From a virus: a DNA stretch of 64,000 nt. This document shows positions 21,200 to 49,931 of the stretch, piece after piece. Position 1 is the first letter of the stretch, and the number at the start of each line of letters is the position of its first letter. The notes under the pieces were generated by a model. It saw only the letters and a list, made by a program, of their open reading frames with translations, did no database searches and was not told where the DNA came from. A program made the position numbers and the translations under genes. The DNA is taken from IMG/VR virus record IMGVR_UViG_3300042868_005520, positions 49,198-113,197 of that record. One strand, 5' to 3'.

Positions 21200-22261
21200 T
21201 TATTTAGACGATTTCAAGTGGCTAGTCATGCGGGGGGCGTTTCCTTTTCCGCTTTGTTGTGTTTCTGGTTCAACTCGTCTTTTTTGAATTACAGCGCGTT
21301 TTCTCTCTTTGGGAGTCATCTCTCCCACCGTCTCAGGAGTCTTGCTGCTTACTTTGTTTGCAGGACGGCATTTAGGGTATTTACCCTTGGAGGTGTCGGA
21401 TCGACCACATGGGGGGTATTCCCCTGTCTTGGGGTCTTTCTTGCCGCCAATGTCCACCCACTTCTCTTTGAACCACCGCGAAAGGTCTTCGTCCATTTTA
21501 CATGGAGGCGTGGGAAATATTTTATTGTGCTTGGAGAATCCCCCTGTTTGACCAGGAGTATCGGCTCTTCGCTTTTTCTTGTCGCTCTCAAGCAGTCGCT
21601 CTGCGGCGGCACGGTAAATATCTGTGTAGTTAATGCCTTCTTTAATCATCGTTTTCATACCCCGTTGTAGGTCTTGGTACAAATCCTTTACATCAGAGGA
21701 ATTAGCCTGTCGGGGCATTCCGCTCTTGAAAGTCTTGAAGTCGTTTGCGGCAGCAGCAGCACGAAGTTTGGACGCGCTCATGCCCTGCACACCTGTTGCG
21801 TTCTCGTCTCGTTTTCCTGCACCAACAATCGTCAGGCTCTTTAGTTTAAGGCGGTCTTTCCTGCGAGTGGAACTCATCAGGTCTTTGAAAGCCTCGTAAC
21901 TTCCTTGACGATCTTCTCCGCCCACAAGGTGTACATGATCGTATCCCTTTTCGGCAAGCCAGTACAGCATCTCCACAGGGTTCTTGATTGTATTCAAGTC
22001 CTTGAAGTTTGCGTCAGGAAAGAACCGCTTCAGGTACTTGAATTTCTGTCGGGGGGTGAGTGGGTTCTTCTTGGGGTCGTTTGTGCGACTGCTGAACATA
22101 GCGTACTCTGCGCCCAAACTCTTTGCCGTGCTAATGACCTTATCGACTAGCAGTTGGTGACCTGATGTGGGGGGTTGAAAGCGACCAAAGGCAACAACGA
22201 TAGACTTGCCTTTAGTCTTGGGTTTAACAATATCCCGAACTTTTTTTTCCACTGTGATCAC
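21200..22261 (-). CDS. Nucleotidyltransferase (NMN adenylyltransferase-like) with basic Cys-containing tail
   Basis: 353 residues. Residues 22-170 form a cytidylyltransferase/NadM-like Rossmann domain: GRFQPPTSGH (26-35, a variant HxGH site with Thr for the first His) and GMSASKLR near 160 (the ISxTxxR-type signature). The C-terminal 100 residues hold LSRWFKEKWVDIG and a CGR..KCR segment, a small basic domain found in large viruses. The first domain would transfer AMP or CMP to a phosphorylated small molecule, possibly in NAD metabolism. The missing first His leaves activity uncertain. Confidence 0.7.
   Translation of the reverse strand: MITVEKKVRDIVKPKTKGKSIVVAFGRFQPPTSGHQLLVDKVISTAKSLGAEYAMFSSRTNDPKKNPLTPRQKFKYLKRFFPDANFKDLNTIKNPVEMLYWLAEKGYDHVHLVGGEDRQGSYEAFKDLMSSTRRKDRLKLKSLTIVGAGKRDENATGVQGMSASKLRAAAAANDFKTFKSGMPRQANSSDVKDLYQDLQRGMKTMIKEGINYTDIYRAAAERLLESDKKKRRADTPGQTGGFSKHNKIFPTPPCKMDEDLSRWFKEKWVDIGGKKDPKTGEYPPCGRSDTSKGKYPKCRPANKVSSKTPETVGEMTPKERKRAVIQKRRVEPETQQSGKGNAPRMTSHLKSSK
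21201..21207 (-). promoter_or_regulatory. Late promoter CTAAATA
   Basis: CTAAATA on the minus strand, overlapping the 3' end of the gene at 21200-22261 and 21 bases upstream of the ATG at 21180. Confidence 0.55.
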
Positions 22262-22294: not shown

Positions 22295-23503
22295 TCAAGG
22301 TTTATTCCAAGTCTTTTCTGTGGTCAGATTGCTGCGTGAAAAATCCAATCGGTCTACCAATTTAACTGCATTGTTGCTCAAGCGGTCGATTGCAACAAAT
22401 CCTTCAGGAGTAGTAACTCGATATCCGCTCTTGTCCTTGATAAAGGTTCCTACGCCTGTTTGCATGGAAGCCATCTTCTGAACAATTGTGAGTTTCAACT
22501 GAGCCAGTGCATTATGTAGTGCAAAAACACGAGCAAGTTGGTTTCTGTTGTTGCGAACCCAATCAATAGATGGAGTAGTTTTTGTGCTTGCTACTTTGCG
22601 TTTGCCTTGTGCGCGGTCAAGCATGAATTGCAGGAGTTGATTCACATCAGCATGAGAAGTAGCAACTCCTCCACGCACCAATCCGTTGATGTAGGTCTTG
22701 ATTTCTATCTTTACTCCCTCGTTCTTGCCAATGCCGTTCAAGACAACACGCAAGTCAGCAGCAGTCTTGGTAAGACTAGCAATAGAGTTTTCAATTGTGC
22801 TGCGTTCCGATGGGGAGAATAGTCCTGATCCGTTTGCAAACTTCATTGTGGCGTTATCAAACCAAACATCCTTTACTTTTTTCATGTAACTAATATCGGG
22901 ATTGAATCGTGCAGTCATGGTGGCGATTGATTCGCCCTCGTATGCGGTATGGAACACAATGCCAATCTTTGCTGCTGCCATGCGTGTTCCCAAATCACTT
23001 TTTGGATCCACGGCGTATTTGATTGTGTTCGGCTGAAAGGTAAGGTAACTCTTGCCGTCAATGAGTTCCCGCTGTTTTGATTCCCCATCGAACATCATGT
23101 CGCCTTGCAGCACACCACGAATACCAAGTTTGGAAAAATGCTTTAGCGCAAGTTTAAGTTTTAAGTTCAATCCCTCTACGGGATGGTTGGCATCAATATC
23201 TGAATTGGTAAAGTTCAATTTGGGAGTCACATTGAACACACTCTTTGTGCCAACAAAAAATCGACCGCTTTGGGGGTCGATTCCACAAATAATGGCGGGT
23301 GCGCCATCCCACTTTACCGTGATGTCGTATGCACTAGGAGCGTTCGCTGTGAGAGCCTCCACAACGCCCCGTAAAGCCTTTATGGCGCGTCCGAACCCTG
23401 CGTAGCCGCTGTTGAGGATCTCGTCCTCAAGATGCTCCAAATGGACATTCTTTCCACTTGATTTTTTAAATGCTTCGACTAGGTGTTCGGTAAATGCTCT
23501 CAT
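22295..23503 (-). CDS. DUF6267-like protein with ligase-type KWDG motif and capsid-targeting N-terminus
   Basis: 402 residues. The start (MRAFTEHLVE) fits the ten-residue T4-type capsid-targeting peptide with cleavage after Glu10. The body matches a family widespread in T4-like aquatic phages: HLEHLEDEILN, then VKWDGAPAI (Lys64 in a KxDG context resembling motif I of nucleotidyltransferase ligases), FVGTKSVFN, LQGDMMF and GIVFHTAYEG. An ATP-dependent nucleic-acid ligase-like activity is plausible, but I have no proof of it. A late promoter lies 19 bases before the ATG. Confidence 0.75.
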   Translation of the reverse strand: MRAFTEHLVEAFKKSSGKNVHLEHLEDEILNSGYAGFGRAIKALRGVVEALTANAPSAYDITVKWDGAPAIICGIDPQSGRFFVGTKSVFNVTPKLNFTNSDIDANHPVEGLNLKLKLALKHFSKLGIRGVLQGDMMFDGESKQRELIDGKSYLTFQPNTIKYAVDPKSDLGTRMAAAKIGIVFHTAYEGESIATMTARFNPDISYMKKVKDVWFDNATMKFANGSGLFSPSERSTIENSIASLTKTAADLRVVLNGIGKNEGVKIEIKTYINGLVRGGVATSHADVNQLLQFMLDRAQGKRKVASTKTTPSIDWVRNNRNQLARVFALHNALAQLKLTIVQKMASMQTGVGTFIKDKSGYRVTTPEGFVAIDRLSNNAVKLVDRLDFSRSNLTTEKTWNKP

Positions 23504-27001: not shown

Positions 27002-29323
27002 TCACTTCTTTGCTTGGGCATCCGTCTTCTTGTTCATAGTTTCGCGTTGCTTTACATCAACCTTCCACAAATCCCAATCAGATAGTTTTCGATTTTGTGG
27101 CATCTTGGATTCCGTTTCAGTAATGCAGATCATACCAACATCGGTAAAGTCCGCAGACTCCCAAATCATATCATTGCCACGATCAAGCACCATGCGGCGG
27201 GTCTTTTTATTTATGATCTGCAAGCCAGTACCTGCAACATTCAGTTCTACTTGATTAGCACCCATCATAAACACAACGGATCCCATTACGCGAGTCTTCT
27301 TGATCTTGACAGAAGTTTCCTTGCCGTCCTTCTTGCCGTAAATTTCAAAGGTTGTTCCCTCTGGCTTCTTGTTTGCAAGTGCAACTAGATCAGCAGCAGT
27401 CTTTTCGTTCTTCGCGATTGTGTTTCCTGCAACAGCATCACGAGTTACCTGTGATGCAACGCTTGCAATCTGTTTGCCGTGTGAATCTGAGCGGTTGGTT
27501 CCTCTACCAATACGAGCACCCACACCAAATGTATCGGGAGCGTCTCCCTCGATCTTTGGCTTCTTCATCTTTGGCTTTGCCGCAGCCTCGGAAAGACTAT
27601 CGTGGTACGCATTGAAACTTGTCATTACCGCACTCACGCTTTGATTCTCGCGTCCCATCAATTTGGAAACCTTGTGCTTCTTGAGGATCTGCTTGATCTT
27701 GGCTTCCTGTTGGGCAGGAGTCATACTGTTCTCTGCCTCTAGATTCATTACCTTCTTCAAGTCTTCAATCGCCCCATCAGGAAGAGCGTAGATCCAGTCT
27801 TCAAGAGCAGCCTTCATGCCACCTTCATTCAACTTTACAGAAACAGATTCGTGAAGTGATTGTGTGATACGACTGATACGACCGCTTCCGAACTTGCTCA
27901 TGTGATATCCTTCTGTCTTTGCCTTGGGCTTTTCTTTGATTGCTTCACCACCACGGGTCTGACTCATCAGCCCCACACTCTTCTGAAATCCATTAGAGAA
28001 CTTAATCATGTCTTCCACAGCAACAGGCTTACCACCTTTAGTAATGGTTCGCGTCTTCATCGTGGTGTTTGCACCGCTTCCGTTTGCAATATCCATTGCA
28101 CACTGTGCAGCCCAACGGTGGTGTCCGTCAATAACATAACCGTCACTCACATAAATTGGTTCAAGAAGGCGCGATGCTGCTTTGCCGTAGTTCGTGGGAT
28201 CCGCTGCGGCAGCAGCAAGAGTTCCGTACATTCCTGCAACCTTCTCACCTTTCAATTGACCTTGAATTGGTTTTAGTGAAGTCACATCTACTTCTTCTTC
28301 CTTTACCTCGTATCCCGAATCTTCAAGAGCCTTACGGTACTCTTTTTCCATATTGATTTCACTCTTCAAGTCTTCGGGTGTTACTTGATCAGGAGTAGTG
28401 TACCCCTTGCTTGCCATGAGAGCCTTGTACGCAACCGATTCGGTATTCTTCGGATCAACCTGTGAAGAAAACTGTGGCATCTCTTCGCGAGGAATACCCT
28501 TGGTGACTTTTTCCTTTGTCTTTGCGTCAAAGCAGAATCCAATATGTGAGAATACTTCCGAGCACAATTCAAAATCGTATGCAGTTTGTCCACGCATTGC
28601 CGATAGAGCAGCGTGGTTCAGTTCATCAATAAAGTCGCGTTCTGCTTGTGCATCACCGAATACAGATTCCGAATCATCCTTTGGACCAGCAAGTTCTTTT
28701 TGGTGAATGGCTTTTGCAACCACATTGGCTTTACGAATGTCTGGCTTTGCAGCAGCCTTCTCCGTAGCCTTTGCGTCTTTTGCGAATGCGCCGTCCATTT
28801 TTGTGGTTGGATTCTTTGTGCCAACATTACTTAGTTGCGCTGTTTCGGCATCTAGTGCTTTCGGCGGTTCGTTTGTTTGGCTACTTTGCGGTTGTGCTTG
28901 ATACTTCGGATCAGCGGTTGTCGCTTTCGCTTGGGTGGCGGGAGTTCCTCGTCCATTGGGTTCGGCTGCTGCTGTGGGTTTTCCTGCATTCGACTTTGGT
29001 GCTCCTGTTGCTGAAGGCTTTTGTTCGAATCCGTCCTTGTCCAATTCTACAGACTGTGAAGTATCTCCTGGTTTGTCTACTCGTCCTGCGGGTGCAGACT
29101 TACCTGCAATCCACGCCTTGGCTGTTTCATCTGAATCAAAGTAATCAGTAACTCCGTCTTTGTTCTTGGCTCCCCATGCTCCGCTTGCTGTTTGCCATGT
29201 TTTACCCTTCTCGCGTCCACCTAAAACCCCGCCGAGTTTCTTCTCTGCGGATTTCACTGGCTTTACGGCTGTCTGAACTTCAAGAATAACTGAGTGCAGA
29301 CTTTTATATGGTTCAATGTCCAT
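27002..29323 (-). CDS. Large multidomain protein with ParB-like domain
   Basis: 773 residues from the ATG at 29323 (GGAG eight bases upstream). A TTG two codons earlier is a weaker candidate. The N-terminus (YKSLHSVILE) resembles the capsid-targeting peptides of the neighbours. Residues 40-75 carry the WGAKN..YFD module shared with the genes at 30236 and 56131. A long Ala/Pro/Thr linker follows. Around residue 395 YVIDGHHRWAAQ matches the ParB/sulfiredoxin-fold core (DGHHR), which in relatives binds nucleotide or cuts DNA. The C-terminal 200 residues look like a separate beta domain. It is probably a virion-internal protein. Confidence 0.65.
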   Translation of the reverse strand: MDIEPYKSLHSVILEVQTAVKPVKSAEKKLGGVLGGREKGKTWQTASGAWGAKNKDGVTDYFDSDETAKAWIAGKSAPAGRVDKPGDTSQSVELDKDGFEQKPSATGAPKSNAGKPTAAAEPNGRGTPATQAKATTADPKYQAQPQSSQTNEPPKALDAETAQLSNVGTKNPTTKMDGAFAKDAKATEKAAAKPDIRKANVVAKAIHQKELAGPKDDSESVFGDAQAERDFIDELNHAALSAMRGQTAYDFELCSEVFSHIGFCFDAKTKEKVTKGIPREEMPQFSSQVDPKNTESVAYKALMASKGYTTPDQVTPEDLKSEINMEKEYRKALEDSGYEVKEEEVDVTSLKPIQGQLKGEKVAGMYGTLAAAAADPTNYGKAASRLLEPIYVSDGYVIDGHHRWAAQCAMDIANGSGANTTMKTRTITKGGKPVAVEDMIKFSNGFQKSVGLMSQTRGGEAIKEKPKAKTEGYHMSKFGSGRISRITQSLHESVSVKLNEGGMKAALEDWIYALPDGAIEDLKKVMNLEAENSMTPAQQEAKIKQILKKHKVSKLMGRENQSVSAVMTSFNAYHDSLSEAAAKPKMKKPKIEGDAPDTFGVGARIGRGTNRSDSHGKQIASVASQVTRDAVAGNTIAKNEKTAADLVALANKKPEGTTFEIYGKKDGKETSVKIKKTRVMGSVVFMMGANQVELNVAGTGLQIINKKTRRMVLDRGNDMIWESADFTDVGMICITETESKMPQNRKLSDWDLWKVDVKQRETMNKKTDAQAKK

Positions 29324-29356
29324 GTTCAAACTCCAAGAGAAGAAAGTCTAAAATTA

Positions 29357-30235: not shown

Positions 30236-31084
30236 CTATAGTGTTTTCGTGAACGCCTGTGCTGCTGAACGAGAATCAAAATATTGAACGGAGCCGCTCT
30301 CGTTCTTTGCTCCCCATTTTTTGTTTTCGGTACGCCATACGGTGCCCACAGGGAACTGCTGTCCTGCTGTTGCGGTTCGTCTTACTTCGGGTGGATCAAT
30401 CTTGCCCTGTTTGCCACGGAGTGAAACGGTGGTGCGTACAATCTTTTGCAGTTGGCGGACACGCTTCTCCTGCTCAGGAGTTCGTTTTACCCCTTGCAGT
30501 GCTTCTAGTTCCGCTTCTCCTGAGTCTCCAAGCCACACGCCGCTTTCCATGCCTGACTTGAACCGCTGCATTCTAGTGGGAGTCATGACCTGTATATTCT
30601 TCATTGCTTCTGCGTCTTGCATGAGTCCACGCCAAATACTTTCTCCGCCAGCAGACTGTACGCCACCCGTAACAATGGTGTACCCCTTCCCATTCAGGAA
30701 CTTGTACAGGCTTTGGGCAAGAGAAAATCCAATTGCACTGCTGCGGTACTCTTTTCCTGCCGTAATCATTGTGACTCGCCATCCACTGCTTCCCGTCTTG
30801 CTGCTACGCTTCATTGTGAGTTCCACAGCCACCGTGTTCGTGGGGCGATGCACAACCAATACAACTAGTTGAGGAGCCGCCGTAGTCTTGGACAAGAACA
30901 CACTAAAATCGTTTCCGATTTGTCCAATGCGGCGAACAGCCTTCTTTGTAGACTTGCCTTCATCCTTTGCGTCATCAGCAATATTCTTTAAGTGTTTACT
31001 TGCACGCAAGCCCACACTACCACCAGCCACTCGTGACACGAGTACTGATTCAATCTCATTTAATATTTGAGAGAATGATTTCAT
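30236..31084 (-). CDS. Capsid-targeted GNAT-like protein with WGAKN module
   Basis: 282 residues. MKSFSQILNE fits the ten-residue capsid-targeting peptide. Residues of about 70-155 resemble a GNAT acetyltransferase core: strands LVVLVVHRP and AVELTMKR, then YRSSAIGFSLAQSLYKFL and a conserved GGESIWRGL. The glycine-rich acetyl-CoA loop is not perfect. The C-terminus (about 244-280) carries the WGAKN..YFD module. If injected with the DNA, it could modify a host target at the onset of infection. ATGA couples it to the 31081 gene. Confidence 0.6.
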   Translation of the reverse strand: MKSFSQILNEIESVLVSRVAGGSVGLRASKHLKNIADDAKDEGKSTKKAVRRIGQIGNDFSVFLSKTTAAPQLVVLVVHRPTNTVAVELTMKRSSKTGSSGWRVTMITAGKEYRSSAIGFSLAQSLYKFLNGKGYTIVTGGVQSAGGESIWRGLMQDAEAMKNIQVMTPTRMQRFKSGMESGVWLGDSGEAELEALQGVKRTPEQEKRVRQLQKIVRTTVSLRGKQGKIDPPEVRRTATAGQQFPVGTVWRTENKKWGAKNESGSVQYFDSRSAAQAFTKTL

Positions 31085-31590
31085 TTCTTTACCAGTGCGT
31101 ACATCTGCACAAACTGATCGCTTGACTGATCCTTTAATCTATATCCGTGCTGTCCTGCAAATCGCTTTATCATGGAATCGTACAGGCGAACGCGAGAATC
31201 ATTTTTCTTTTTCTCTTTTGCTGCCGTAAAACGAATTACCTCTGGATCGTATTCTTCGATGAGTTGTTTCATAGCCGCAAGGGCTGTTGCGAATATTCGT
31301 CCTGTTTCGGATTTCATCTCCGCTTCCTGATCTGGTGGTGGCGAAGCCTCATCATCCACAGTGAATCCAAACACCCAACCCGCAATGGTGCCCTCGTCTC
31401 TTCGACGATCAGATTCACCGTATCGGATGGGGCGACCATACGCTTCAAACAAATGCGGCTTTCCGTCCACCAACCAGTTTCCGTACCACACCACACCACC
31501 ATGATTCAGGTACAGCGGTGTCTTCACCATTGTTAATGGGATAGGAGTTGAGTTGAAGATTTCTTGAAGATGCTGTCGAAATGCTTTCAT
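31081..31590 (-). CDS. Capsid-targeted protein, tandem family member 1
   Basis: 169 residues. It begins MKAFRQHLQE, a capsid-targeting peptide with a likely cut after Glu10. The C-terminal half shares IFATALAAM, IRFTAAKEK, YDSMIKRFAGQHGY and a final LVKK with the genes at 32810 and 33292 and, more weakly, 31587. The function of this domain is unknown. Its start overlaps the stop of the 31587 gene by ATGA. Confidence 0.65.
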   Translation of the reverse strand: MKAFRQHLQEIFNSTPIPLTMVKTPLYLNHGGVVWYGNWLVDGKPHLFEAYGRPIRYGESDRRRDEGTIAGWVFGFTVDDEASPPPDQEAEMKSETGRIFATALAAMKQLIEEYDPEVIRFTAAKEKKKNDSRVRLYDSMIKRFAGQHGYRLKDQSSDQFVQMYALVKK

Positions 31591-32813
31591 AGTGACTGCC
31601 TCTTGACTTTACCGTGAAGTTGACGATCATATCTATTGGCGCGGTAGTCCATTGGAACATCAACTTCTTTGTTTGCGTTACGGTCGTACTGTGTACGCAC
31701 TCCTCCAACCACAACGGAAAGAATAAGATTTTCTATGAATGCGGTATCACCCAATATAATCTTGGGTAGTTCTTCTTTTGCCTTTACCGATCCAATGTAG
31801 CCCATGAGCATCCAACCTTCAGTTGTTTGAATGCGAACACGCCAACGCCAAACCTTTGCACTGTCTTTCCAATACGGAGAGTCTTTGGACGAACTAGGTG
31901 TGTAGTTTTTACCGTCTATGCGAACTGTTTTGGGAGCATTGAAATTCTTCATGGACTTTACAGGCACACCGTACACAGGATACAACTCTACAATCTTTCC
32001 ACTAATATTAAATGGACGAGCGTAGTACTCCTTCTTTGGACGCGGAATGTCGCCGTGCTCCACTCCTTCGCTCATGCCCCGCCTCCACTTGTTGTTGTCT
32101 TTGGAGCGATTGGTTGCGCGAGTCACGAGTCGAATGTTCTTCTTGCCGTTGTTCAGCGCGTTGCCGTCCTTGTGGTCAATCTCGCGTCCATCGGTGCTTT
32201 TTCCTTCGCGTCCCATCTTGCGAAGAATACGCTTGCGCGATGTTTTCTTTTTCATTGCAATGCGCTGCTTGGGCGTGGGGTTTGCACCACCGTACATCTT
32301 GGCGTACTCTGCTTTGTAGTCGCGGTCTTCTGCAAGTTTAGCCGTGGTCACGGTTCGCTGTTCAGCACGGCGGCGACCGTAAACTTCGGTGTTTGCAATC
32401 TTGTACCCGTACTGCTTGCCGAAACGGCGCATCAGTGCACTGTACACCGCATCGCGCTTGCCTTCGGAGGTCTTGGATATCATGTCTAACTGTTTGGGTA
32501 ATTGATTAAATGTTTCCATGTGCCACTTCAAGAACATCTGCACCGCTTCCACAACTGTAGCCAGTATGCGATACGGCTTTCCTGCGTGTGTGAGTTCGTG
32601 TGAGCCATCCAAGGTGAAATTGATTTCCCACCCTTGGTTAATCTTTGTGATATCAATGTTCAAATACTGTGGTATTCCCAAATACGGGTCAGCATCGGTT
32701 TGTGCTTGGTATGTGATTTCAATTACACTGCTCTGCCATCCAATACGCTTTAGTTCACGCACAGAGAAAGGCTTATCGAATAGTTCGGTAAGGTAGGAGC
32801 GGAAGTCAATCAC
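31587..32813 (-). CDS. Capsid-targeted HNH endonuclease
   Basis: 408 residues. Residues 1-10 (MIDFRSYLTE) are the capsid-targeting peptide, followed by LFDKPF as in the paralogues. Residues 11-140 are a diverged copy of the tandem family domain. Residues of about 187-240 form an HNH nuclease: ILRKMGREGK, then EIDHKDGNALNN (Asp213-His214), KKNIRLVT and TRATNRSK. A beta-rich third domain (260-400) holds WRWRVRIQTTEGWMLMG. A nuclease tethered to a capsid signal would be delivered with the genome and could cut host or competitor DNA. ATGA overlaps join it to both neighbours. Confidence 0.75.
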   Translation of the reverse strand: MIDFRSYLTELFDKPFSVRELKRIGWQSSVIEITYQAQTDADPYLGIPQYLNIDITKINQGWEINFTLDGSHELTHAGKPYRILATVVEAVQMFLKWHMETFNQLPKQLDMISKTSEGKRDAVYSALMRRFGKQYGYKIANTEVYGRRRAEQRTVTTAKLAEDRDYKAEYAKMYGGANPTPKQRIAMKKKTSRKRILRKMGREGKSTDGREIDHKDGNALNNGKKNIRLVTRATNRSKDNNKWRRGMSEGVEHGDIPRPKKEYYARPFNISGKIVELYPVYGVPVKSMKNFNAPKTVRIDGKNYTPSSSKDSPYWKDSAKVWRWRVRIQTTEGWMLMGYIGSVKAKEELPKIILGDTAFIENLILSVVVGGVRTQYDRNANKEVDVPMDYRANRYDRQLHGKVKRQSL

Positions 32814-33289
32814 GCTGCACCTCGCTTTGGCTTTATGCGTTCAAGCACAAACATATTTTCGAAATAGTCTTCTTCGTTCTTAATCAACTTGTATCCGTAC
32901 TGTGGAGCAAACCGCTTGATCATTGCCGTGTACACACGGGATCTTGATGTGGGTCTGTCCTGCTGAAGAGTTCGGTCAAAGTCTTGTTTGCTTGCAGTAA
33001 ATTTAAAGTACTTTGGGCGATCACTTTTTTTCTCCATGAACCGCTTGAACGCATCCATTACTGATGCAAATACTCTTGCGCCATCGCCTTCGGCACGAAT
33101 GCCTGTGTCTCCGTCCACATCAAAGGAAACTATTATAGTTTCTTCGGTGGGATACCTGTTAAAGAGTACTTCAAGTATTCCACCCTTTGCACCCGTATAG
33201 GAGTACCTCTTGCTTGATACGCCAGCCTCTTTCACAAAGGTGAACGGCTCATCAAAGAGTTCGGTGATGTAGGAGCGAAATGCTTTCAT
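32810..33289 (-). CDS. Capsid-targeted protein, tandem family member 3
   Basis: 159 residues. MKAFRSYITE precedes LFDEPF. ITELFDE also occurs at the start of T4 Alt, which is packaged and trimmed there. The body has the family core (GDGARVFASVMDAFKRF, KYFKFTASK, YTAMIKRFAPQYGY) and ends in ERIKPKRG. It is closest to the 33292 protein. Confidence 0.65.
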   Translation of the reverse strand: MKAFRSYITELFDEPFTFVKEAGVSSKRYSYTGAKGGILEVLFNRYPTEETIIVSFDVDGDTGIRAEGDGARVFASVMDAFKRFMEKKSDRPKYFKFTASKQDFDRTLQQDRPTSRSRVYTAMIKRFAPQYGYKLIKNEEDYFENMFVLERIKPKRGAA

Positions 33290-33291
33290 GG

Positions 33292-33792
33292 TTACTCAGA
33301 GAATGCAGGAGAATACTGGTCGCCCAAACCTTTTTTACGAACAATAAAAATCATTACCTTTTTTCTTTCGTTTGACGAACTCAACTCGTATCCGTATTTA
33401 GGGGCAAACCGTTTAATCATTGCGGAGTACACACGCGCTCTTGATGTGGGACGGGTTTCCATGCTAACACTATCCCAGTCTTCTTTGTTTGCACTAAACT
33501 CAAAGTAGTCAGGCTGATTCTTTTTCAAGAACCGCCCAAACGCGTCCATTACTGATGCAAATATTCTTGGGGCATCGCCTTCACCACGAACAGCAATAGA
33601 TCCACCCACATCAAAGTCCACATACACAGAGTCGCCTTGATTGCTGAAGTTTACTTCAAGAGGTCCACCCTCTGCGCCTTTGTACTCGTAGGTCATTGTT
33701 CCTGGCTTTTGCCAGTTTTTATCTGCTGTGGTTTTGACTAGCCTGAACGGCTTGTCAAACATTTCGCGGAGGTGCTGGCGGAATGAATTCAT
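33292..33792 (-). CDS. Capsid-targeted protein, tandem family member 4
   Basis: 166 residues. MNSFRQHLRE then MFDKPF. The body aligns along its whole length with the 32810 protein (GDAPRIFASVMDAFGRF, DYFEFSANKED, YSAMIKRFAPKYGYEL), so the two look like a recent duplication. It ends IVRKKGLGDQYSPAFSE. No enzymatic motif is visible. Confidence 0.65.
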   Translation of the reverse strand: MNSFRQHLREMFDKPFRLVKTTADKNWQKPGTMTYEYKGAEGGPLEVNFSNQGDSVYVDFDVGGSIAVRGEGDAPRIFASVMDAFGRFLKKNQPDYFEFSANKEDWDSVSMETRPTSRARVYSAMIKRFAPKYGYELSSSNERKKVMIFIVRKKGLGDQYSPAFSE

Positions 33793-34361
33793 ATCACGCC
33801 TTCCACATCATTGTCAACCACGGTGTAGCCTGGGAACATACGCGCAAGGTTGTTCATCACGCGGTTCTTGCCCCGTTGAAGCGCACGATCACGCAGCAGA
33901 TTCTCGCCTGTTGCGGCAGAGATAATGGAAACAGTTTTACGAAAGCGATCCACGCGTCCTTGGTAGTCTGTCATGCCGCTGTAGTTGGGTGCCTTCTTCG
34001 CAGCAGCAAGGTATTCAGGAATGTCACCGTGAATCACATCCTGCGCGGTTTCGCTTGGCGGAATTTCGTACACCACAATCTTGCCACCGTCCCACCACCA
34101 CAGCAGCGGCAAGTACGAGCGCAGAGTCTTTACATCACTTGTGGGTGGAAGCCCCCACTTCTCAAGCCAACGCGCATTGGGGTTGTCGTGCCCTGTATCC
34201 GTGTACGATGCGTACTGTTTGCCGTCATAGGTGGTTTCGCCACGCAACCGCTGGAGCGTCTTGGCAGCAATAGTCTTGTAGCCCTTGGGCTTGCGGACAC
34301 CCTTCACGGCTTTGGTGGCAGAGATCACGGCTTCGCGAAGATGTTGACGGAATGTATGCAT
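33789..34361 (-). CDS. Capsid-targeted protein, 190 residues
   Basis: I choose the ATG at 34361 (MHTFRQHLRE), which restores the ten-residue capsid-targeting peptide and lies five bases after a late promoter. ATGs at 34367 and 34376 overlap that promoter. The body (YKTIAAKTLQRLRGETTYDG, then WLEKWGLPPTSDV) is unlike the tandem family and contains WWWDGGKIVVYEIPP. The C-terminus is helical. Function unknown. It is probably a head-packaged protein. Confidence 0.65.
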   Translation of the reverse strand: MHTFRQHLREAVISATKAVKGVRKPKGYKTIAAKTLQRLRGETTYDGKQYASYTDTGHDNPNARWLEKWGLPPTSDVKTLRSYLPLLWWWDGGKIVVYEIPPSETAQDVIHGDIPEYLAAAKKAPNYSGMTDYQGRVDRFRKTVSIISAATGENLLRDRALQRGKNRVMNNLARMFPGYTVVDNDVEGVI

Positions 34362-34366
34362 CTCCA

Positions 34367-34373
34367 TATTTAG
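34367..34373 (-). promoter_or_regulatory. Late promoter, leaderless start
   Basis: CTAAATA followed by TGGAG and the ATG at 34361, a five-base gap identical to those at 10846 and 11715. It sits directly behind a terminator. Confidence 0.6.
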
Positions 34374-34374
34374 C

Positions 34375-34399
34375 AAAAGAAAAACCCCCTTGCGGGGGC
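34375..34399 (-). terminator. Terminator after the 34407 gene
   Basis: On the minus strand CCCCC-GCAA-GGGGG is followed by TTTTTCTTTT. Confidence 0.8.
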
Positions 34400-34406
34400 T
34401 AATCGT

Positions 34407-35144
34407 TTACGAGTTCAGGTACTGAGAGTACCCGTTCTCTAGGAAGATGTTCTTCTCTGTGCGGGGCACCAAACCTATTTCAATAATTGCTGCTTCGGGT
34501 TCGGATCCCACCACATCCCGCACCTCTCGGAGTGCGCTCTTGATGGAGTCACGGGATATGCCTTCAATGATTGGGGAGGGTGAGTTCGCAGAGAACTTTC
34601 GTGCGTACACTTTCAGCCACCCCTTCATGTACGCAAGCCGCTGCACATGGTAGGCAAGATCAATGTACAGTTCCTTGATACGCTGCCCAACGAGTTCGGG
34701 AGTCCAGTCTATTACGATTCCGTCCCGTGAGAACGCTAGTACCCTTCGGGAAGTTAGCCACTCCCCTTCTGCTGCCAGTGCCTTTTTCAATTCTGCTGGC
34801 GAGATGCCGAACCGCTCTGGATGGTTTACTATTTGGGTAACATGGAACTCCCCCTCACCCCCAAAGGTGAACCACGGTTTCGTGGGATGCCACCACCCTG
34901 CATTGGTGCTTGTAGCCCACTGGTAGGGAGCGCGTGAAGGCTTTCGTGCGCCCCGTTCACGCTGATGCCTGGCAAGATCTCGTGCTGCCATCCTTGCCAT
35001 GACTCCACCGTACAGGCGGGTTTGGCGGCGGGAGTACAGCAAGTCCTTACGAGACTGCGGAGCAGTATCACGGGGAGGCGTGTACGCGTTGGGATTGTCC
35101 TGAATCTCTAGCCGCTCGGAGATGTACTGCCTGAACGGAATCAC
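34407..35144 (-). CDS. Capsid-targeted protein, 245 residues
   Basis: MIPFRQYISE is a capsid-targeting peptide. Residues 45-80 are strongly basic (MARMAARDLARHQRERGARK). Then WWHPTKPWFTFGGEGEFH and helices up to IEIGLVPRTEKNIFLENGY follow. The latter half somewhat resembles the protein class that carries SREIGLVP-type ends in T4-like phages, but I cannot assign it. It overlaps the 35141 gene by ATGA and is followed by a terminator. Confidence 0.6.
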   Translation of the reverse strand: MIPFRQYISERLEIQDNPNAYTPPRDTAPQSRKDLLYSRRQTRLYGGVMARMAARDLARHQRERGARKPSRAPYQWATSTNAGWWHPTKPWFTFGGEGEFHVTQIVNHPERFGISPAELKKALAAEGEWLTSRRVLAFSRDGIVIDWTPELVGQRIKELYIDLAYHVQRLAYMKGWLKVYARKFSANSPSPIIEGISRDSIKSALREVRDVVGSEPEAAIIEIGLVPRTEKNIFLENGYSQYLNS

Positions 35145-49079: not shown

Positions 49080-49931
49080 ATGGCTACCGCTCCGTCCGCT
49101 ACCGTCTCCTCACCGTCTCGCACCAAAATGCCGAAAGCATCCACTTACAATATCTACACGCTCAACGCTTCCACGCCCCCATACGGTCTGTGGATCAATA
49201 TTCCGTTTCGCACCAAGGGCAGCACCGCTATTCGCGATGAAGCAAAAACTCGCGGAGCGCGTTTTGTTCCTGCTGCAAAGGGCAAAATGAAGTGGTGGCT
49301 TCCGCAAAATAAGTTTACTACTGAAACCATTGCTTGGTTGAACACGAACCAAATGATTCACGGTGAACGCTTGGCTCCTGTGTTTAATGCCAATGCTTTG
49401 CAGTTCAGCGACATCAATACAGCACTGCCGTTTCGCTTGTGGCTTGTTGTTCCGTTTGCCCACAAGGACGGAGTGAAGAACCTTGGTGCAAAGTGGAGCG
49501 GCGATTTAAAGAAGTGGTATTTCGATAATCGCACACTCACGCCTGGCATTTTCACCAATATGTTGGCGAATAAATGGGCTTGGTGCTTTAGCGGTACAAC
49601 CGTTTTAAATCCAGGACAGATTTCAGAAATCAATTTTTCTGCTGAAGACTTGGATAGTAAGCGTACTGCTCCTCTTACTCGCACAGTGGTGCAGCCTACA
49701 GCGGCTCCTGCTGCTGATGTTCCGTTTCGGATGCAGTTGTGGTCATTCGAGAAGAATGATCACCTCATCGTCATGTGTACTACAGCCGATGGTCGTGTTA
49801 ATATTAAGTCTTCAGACGAGACTTATGTAAGCAACATCTACACCAAGGAAGAAGCGCGTACCTGTTGGAACTGTATTGTTGCTGACGGTTGGGTACTCAC
49901 AGTCACACACAAGCAAGGAGAACACGAATGA
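49080..49931 (+). CDS. Double DUF5710-like protein
   Basis: 283 residues, ATG eight bases after the -10 box. Two copies of a small domain: YGLWINIPFRTKG..AKTRGARF..WWLP (about 34-75) and FRLWLVVPFAHKDGVKNLGA..KWYFD (about 119-150). DUF5710 domains occur beside primases and relaxases and may bind nucleic acid. The C-terminal 65 residues share a domain with the next gene (EEARTCWNCIVADGW). Confidence 0.7.
   Translation: MATAPSATVSSPSRTKMPKASTYNIYTLNASTPPYGLWINIPFRTKGSTAIRDEAKTRGARFVPAAKGKMKWWLPQNKFTTETIAWLNTNQMIHGERLAPVFNANALQFSDINTALPFRLWLVVPFAHKDGVKNLGAKWSGDLKKWYFDNRTLTPGIFTNMLANKWAWCFSGTTVLNPGQISEINFSAEDLDSKRTAPLTRTVVQPTAAPAADVPFRMQLWSFEKNDHLIVMCTTADGRVNIKSSDETYVSNIYTKEEARTCWNCIVADGWVLTVTHKQGEHE

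Follow-up and report, generated by a model that had tools for sequence, protein, structure and literature searches.

A capsid-targeted protein of a T4-like phage may deliver an HNH nuclease as one of three modules separated by predicted prohead-protease sites

HNH nuclease genes are familiar in phages, and one that lies inside a protein beginning with a capsid-delivery peptide raises the question of whether the nuclease travels in the virion and in what form it would reach the cell. Such a gene lies near the middle of the window, by which we mean the whole 64,000-nucleotide stretch analyzed here (positions 49,198 to 113,197 of IMG/VR record IMGVR_UViG_3300042868_005520). In chain order, its 408-aa product consists of a capsid-targeting sequence, a GNAT-like family domain, an HNH module, and an OB-like beta domain (Table 1). 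The initial annotation had placed a packaging signal, a family domain, an HNH core, and a further beta domain in one protein, and this was confirmed by the peptide match, the paralogues, Pfam and PHROG matches, and the structure models. The N-terminus aligns with those of ATG-started relatives, supporting the GTG start; the gene sits in a run of co-directional genes and overlaps both neighbors by 4 nt (GTGA upstream and ATGA downstream), as in a coupled operon. The full-length protein had no match among annotated phages, and Pfam matches to US22 and Topoisom_bac (E ~0.01, far below the cut-off) were set aside. Our preferred reading, to which we assign a probability of roughly 0.6, is that the gene encodes a single packaged polyprotein that would be cut in the prohead into three cargo proteins and then injected, the processing being read from the sequence.

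Table 1. Features of the putative cargo polyprotein and its surroundings (window coordinates; the slash marks the predicted cut)
Feature	Position	Strand	Details	Basis
Putative polyprotein gene	31587..32813	(-)	408 aa, GTG start, 47.2 kDa, pI 9.9	ORF list, mass
Capsid-targeting sequence MIDFRSYLTE	32784..32813	(-)	Residues 1-10; predicted cleavage after E10	T4 IP likeness, enrichment
First module	32328..32783	(-)	Residues 11-162, 17.6 kDa, probable GNAT fold, phrog_16075/6387 family	AlphaFold, Foldseek, paralogues
Predicted prohead-protease site, family-domain/HNH joint	32328..32336	(-)	L160-A161-E162 / D163	Homology start, linker
HNH nuclease module	32067..32327	(-)	Residues 163-249, 87 aa, 10.1 kDa, pI 10.7	Pfam HNH_3, PHROG, relatives, dN/dS
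HNH catalytic core	32109..32183	(-)	Residues 211-235 (D213, H214, N226, N235)	I-HmuI alignment, conservation
Predicted prohead-protease site, HNH/OB joint	32067..32075	(-)	M247-S248-E249 / G250	Alignment with OB-protein targeting peptides
Third module	31590..32066	(-)	Residues 250-408, 18.3 kDa, OB-fold-like	AlphaFold, Foldseek, free-standing relatives
Array of seven contiguous genes with T4-type targeting-peptide starts, including 31587-32813	30236..35144	(-)		ORF list, motif count

By gene order and alignment, the genome is T4-like: gp18, 19, 20, 21, 22, and 23 are ordered as in T4 and lie at the end of the record opposite the window, the gp21, gp22, and gp23 of the record were aligned to their T4 counterparts, and gp23 is ~54% identical to gp23 of Synechococcus T4-like phages. 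The gp21-type prohead protease encoded in the same genome is a clear Peptidase_S77 match (E = 1.7e-40), and the hydrophobic-x-Glu triplet MLVE of gp23 aligns with the T4 maturation site FLTE, which suggests that this protease has the same hydrophobic-x-Glu specificity. The protease match is absent in several of the relative records that carry the modules described below; these records may be fragments. The T4 late promoter TATAAATA does not occur in the 64-kb window, where 1.03 copies are expected by chance, and the late transcription signals of this T4-like phage may differ from those of T4.

The peptide MIDFRSYLTE agrees in alignment with MKTYQEFIAE of T4 IPII and IPIII at positions 4, 7, 8, and 10; in the T4 capsid signal, residues 4 and 7 have been assigned to targeting and residues 8 and 10 to processing (PMC9026906). 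It thus has the features of a T4-type internal-protein start, namely, an aromatic or hydrophobic residue at positions 4 and 7, L or I at position 8, and E at position 10. Across the 113-kb record, 8 ORFs start in this way against 0.22 expected in shuffles, and in related phages many proteins that are not related to one another have ten-residue starts of this kind.

Evidence for the nuclease came from several searches. The window protein scored 25.6 bits against Pfam HNH_3 (cut-off, 24.8; relatives, 31.6-34.6 bits) and had a PHROG HNH match (4.5e-7), and the only meaningful PDB match was I-HmuI (1u3e; E = 0.033), whose D74/H75/N87/N96 align with D213/H214/N226/N235; residues 211-222 read EIDHKDGNALNN. 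Much in the initial annotation depended on the HNH residues being conserved in homologues: H214, N226, and N235 are invariant in 86/86 relatives, as are N218 and R236, and D213 is kept in 79/86. With a median dN/dS of 0.085 for relatives of the module within this phage group, the HNH module is, by these sequence measures, intact and under purifying selection. In the structure model (pLDDT about 60-78 here), predicted strands 210-214 and 227-231 and helices 232-236 and 238-245 are compatible with a beta-beta-alpha-metal arrangement. The HNH belongs to a family with many free-standing phage members of ~72 aa, which start M[A/P]RDYKxEY, and the HNH part alone, when searched against annotated phages, matched other HNH proteins, mostly small and free-standing among the matches listed.

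The two flanking domains were assigned from structure models built from two separate alignments; the whole-protein alignment of 71 relatives had mixed modules. The first domain was modeled together with the HNH (AlphaFold pLDDT 72), and its best Foldseek matches were all GNATs (E = 1.3e-4, probability 1.0, TM to target 0.44); it had no Pfam match and no match in a profile search against PDB sequences. The products of 32810-33289 and 33292-33792 are paralogous to this domain, and paralogues keep (R/T)GEGxA and a GY-x-L ending. On this weak-to-moderate model a GNAT fold is probable; acetyltransferase activity is not implied. The third domain is mostly beta (AlphaFold pLDDT 79), and its top Foldseek matches were mostly OB folds (MCM N-terminal, RPA, SSB, and S12; best E = 7e-3, probability 0.99); a profile search against PDB sequences was empty, and Foldseek against viral models gave no significant match. 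This model, likewise weak to moderate, points weakly to an OB-like domain, and nucleic-acid binding by it would be a guess.

Comparison with relatives from 48 viral contigs (L numbers are our labels for viral records) indicates, at the level of sequence, that each of the three domains is a cargo module that can be separated from the others. The first domain stands alone in the window neighbors and in L022. The HNH follows a targeting peptide of its own in L018 (97 aa), L023 (93 aa), and L021 (which has an extra C-terminal part), the first domain in L006-L011, L017, and L019, and a PNK-like HAD phosphatase (phrog_415, 1.8e-11) in L012, L013, L015, and L016; it precedes the OB-like domain in the window phage and its near-copies L004 and L005. 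The OB-like domain, in turn, is the only domain after the targeting peptide in L015, L017, L019, and L026 and follows other domains in L007-L011, L016, L020, and L022; in L024-L031 no close HNH relative was found alongside the OB module. The first-domain gene of L022 is 93% DNA-identical to that of L012, the identity ends at the joint, and no HNH is present there in L022.

Upon pairwise alignment of differently built proteins, the point at which homology begins either coincides with a hydrophobic-x-Glu triplet or lies a few residues from one. Homology with proteins in which the HNH directly follows a targeting peptide or the HAD phosphatase begins at L160-A161-E162, and M247-S248-E249 aligns with the targeting-peptide end of free-standing OB proteins (e.g., MKSFTDHLCE/GMEHGD in L015). 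All HNH and OB joints checked carry such a triplet (LAE, LIE, LVE, VPE, VHE, LKE, LTE, and LEE at HNH joints; MSE, LSE, LRE, VKE, VRE, LCE, ITE, and FNE at OB joints), with the middle residue variable and the outer two keeping their class; the background frequency is ~1.2% per position. The window protein has [LIM]xE at residues 10, 162, and 249, i.e., at the joints, and otherwise only at residue 276; residue 162 abuts a low-confidence linker (163-166) in the AlphaFold model, and the triplet at 276 falls within a strand of the third domain that is predicted with confidence. The aromatic targeting residues are gone from most internal joints and the processing residues remain, a pattern expected if selection keeps cleavage and not packaging; L010 and L022 keep one Phe, and the Trp at the window OB joint belongs to the end of the HNH. 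A cut at LAE/DRDYKAEY would also yield a nuclease with a start close to that of the free form, since the joint or targeting peptide replaces exactly the start of the free form: the predicted D-RDYKAEY is nearly the free-form M[A/P]RDYKxEY.

Three considerations temper this argument. The motifs at the joints might be left over from targeting peptides that the modules once had themselves, and not sites kept by selection; because they may be inherited together with the module, a combined probability near 1e-11, obtained by treating the joints as independent events, is overstated and was not relied on. Depletion of hydrophobic-x-Glu inside mature cargo domains was considered as independent proof of proteolysis and rejected, as 60 triplets were counted where 58.8 were expected; for a three-residue motif that is undepleted inside mature domains, the motif alone is no proof of cleavage. 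Finally, the triplet is absent at the estimated boundary in the multidomain relative at L018 6904 and at one L011 joint (WVKNE/TSHD), so the joint rule is not universal for all cargo modules.

Under the polyprotein reading, the ten-residue N-terminal signal would take the entire 47 kDa chain into the core of the prohead, where the gp21-type protease would cut after E10, E162, and E249 to give a GNAT-like protein of 17.6 kDa, a very basic HNH protein of 10.1 kDa, and an OB-fold-like protein of 18.3 kDa. The three fragments would remain in the head and then enter the cell with the DNA, and the HNH would most likely nick or cut DNA early in infection, be it the host chromosome, a plasmid, or a competing phage. 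We infer each of these events, from packaging, cleavage, and injection to DNA cutting and its target, from sequence features. T4 IPI-III inhibit GmrSD restriction enzymes (PMC12373910), which makes counter-defense the default role of such cargo; for a packaged nuclease, the DNA of the host, a plasmid, or a competitor is another possible target. The initial annotation's proposal of a weapon against host or competitor DNA is best regarded as plausible for what is, by sequence, an intact HNH. Its picture of an HNH attached to a capsid-delivery peptide stands insofar as a conserved HNH lies behind a T4-type peptide, a matching protease gene is present, and elsewhere the HNH occurs alone with such a peptide; lasting attachment is doubtful, since the joints carry protease motifs and the nuclease, once mature, would probably be free, at ~10 kDa, and not part of a 47 kDa protein. 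A further point weighs against the mechanism: a nuclease carried in the virion would have to leave the DNA of its own phage intact.

If only the ten-residue signal were removed, the GNAT-like, HNH, and OB domains would instead form a single packaged multidomain effector, injected as one enzyme in which the OB domain holds DNA for the HNH. All three domains do form one chain in the window phage, an OB-like domain beside a nuclease is a sensible DNA-binding pair, and internal hydrophobic-x-Glu triplets are common in proteins and undepleted. We nevertheless consider this unlikely, as HNH and OB are apart in most relatives and have varied partners, each is also found behind a targeting peptide of its own, and the triplet is kept at each HNH joint and each OB joint while the adjacent sequence changes.

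More doubtful still is that the HNH is a selfish, homing-type gene that lodged at a cargo gene's end and travels in the virion as a hitch-hiker, with either no role in infection or a delivery that aids homing into co-infecting phages. I-HmuI, its sole PDB relative, is a homing nickase of an intron and has additional parts for DNA recognition; the family of free-standing phage HNH proteins is large, and the module is present or absent between near-identical alleles (L012/L022), all as this explanation would have it. Against it, no intron, intein, or DNA-recognition domain (NUMOD/AP2) was found with the HNH module, which had no NUMOD/AP2 Pfam match; the architecture is not that of a homing endonuclease but an in-frame fusion behind a targeting peptide, and the module begins with a capsid-targeting peptide of its own in L018, L021, and L023 and is combined elsewhere with the PNK-like phosphatase module and with the OB module. 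As to the general statement that HNH genes in phages are usually free-standing homing enzymes, being a homing enzyme is one usual state among others: this subfamily is commonly seen as a free-standing phage protein of ~72 aa.

Terminase-associated HNH proteins occur in other phages, and the HNH might similarly act in head assembly or DNA packaging and not after injection; it would be in the prohead as DNA enters, and its pI of 10.7 is very basic. It is, however, missing from the L022 gene, and no close HNH relative turned up with the OB module of L024-L031, which makes the HNH accessory and a role of this kind highly improbable. That the N-terminus is a chance look-alike of a packaging signal on a cytoplasmic protein deserves next to no credence given eight matches where a fraction of one was expected, seven of them in one array, the similar starts in related phages, and the prohead protease gene.

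Capsid-targeted injected proteins, multidomain polyvalent proteins, and prohead proteases that cut scaffold or propeptides repeatedly are already known. T4 IPI, IPII, and IPIII carry a capsid-targeting sequence, are cut by gp21, are injected, and have sizes of about 8, 10, and 20 kDa (PMC9026906). The window protein resembles them in the key positions of the ten-residue peptide, in the gp21-family protease of the genome, in being small, basic, variable cargo from an accessory gene cluster, and in the size range of its predicted fragments; it differs in that T4 IPs are single small proteins from which an N-terminal peptide is removed, whereas here three modules, one of them a nuclease, share one peptide and have protease motifs between them. 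Polyvalent proteins of phages and conjugative elements are multidomain, packaged, and likely injected, often with a peptidase in cis (Iyer et al. 2017, PMC5512222). They too join several unrelated domains, including GNATs and nucleases, and the window protein is likewise predicted to be packaged; it had no Pfam or PHROG match to a peptidase or signature polyvalent domain, which are common but not obligatory in polyvalent proteins, and its predicted protease is the separate prohead protease. In SPN3US and phiKZ, a gp21-related protease makes multiple cuts per head protein at a short motif ending in Glu (PMC10052503, PMC9026906); those extra cuts remove propeptides, whereas the cuts predicted here would separate folded functional modules. 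Free-standing phage HNH proteins (phrog_4590/4578; Pelagibacter and Roseobacter phages) and I-HmuI have the same HNH core and invariant residues, the free-standing forms being without the capsid-targeting peptide seen here.

A literature search, which had most subscription papers outside its reach, returned neither a targeting peptide with several effector modules separated by prohead-protease sites nor an HNH nuclease as T4-type cargo; T4-type internal proteins are known so far as single-domain injected inhibitors. We give an even chance to the broader proposal that T4-like phages have plug-in cargo polyproteins, in which one targeting peptide is followed by exchangeable modules (GNAT-like, PNK-like phosphatase, HNH, and OB), each preceded by a protease site, so that maturation would free separate effectors, the HNH with a near-native N-terminus. 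If true, a nuclease packaged in the capsid, together with a polyprotein from which the head protease frees several effectors, would widen what a phage delivers at time zero, and a targeting peptide plus hydrophobic-x-Glu joints would be a simple rule for finding injected effectors in phage genomes; it would also raise the question of what protects the genome in a virion that contains a DNA nuclease.

Several other observations were made in passing. The PNK-like phosphatase lies between the first domain and the HNH at L012:7959-9278, L013:149-1423, L015:8501-9775, and L016:9253-10608, flanked by LAE or IPE and by VHE, which puts a nuclease and a phosphatase-like enzyme in a single cargo chain. 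A small cargo module (SHDFKDFKDPW...) is found in L011:6994-8004, L016:7704-8513, and L023:4381-4653, where it occurs after KIHE/G, a targeting peptide (YLSE/G), or another domain. The 195-aa targeting-peptide protein at 33789-34376(-), a neighbor of 31587-32813, is free-standing in the window and is fused via ELSE/G or ELRE/G to an OB-like domain in L007, L008, and L020. The DUF6267 protein at 22295-23503(-) has the T4-type targeting start MRAFTEHLVE; this protein and the cytidylyltransferase-like product of the next gene, 21200-22261, are the two parts into which a single PHROG family of 764 residues, phrog_455, is split here. The 775-aa protein at 27002-29329(-), with a ParB-like stretch (VIDGHHRWAA; phrog_2859), has an N-terminus, EPYKSLHSVILE, that resembles a variant targeting peptide, and relatives, too, have it conserved on the downstream side of the cargo array. 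Lastly, visual inspection of the targeting-peptide proteins at L174:3096-4004 and L177:3231-4004 suggests a likeness, through SF and EIIR motifs, to Alt-type ADP-ribosyltransferases.
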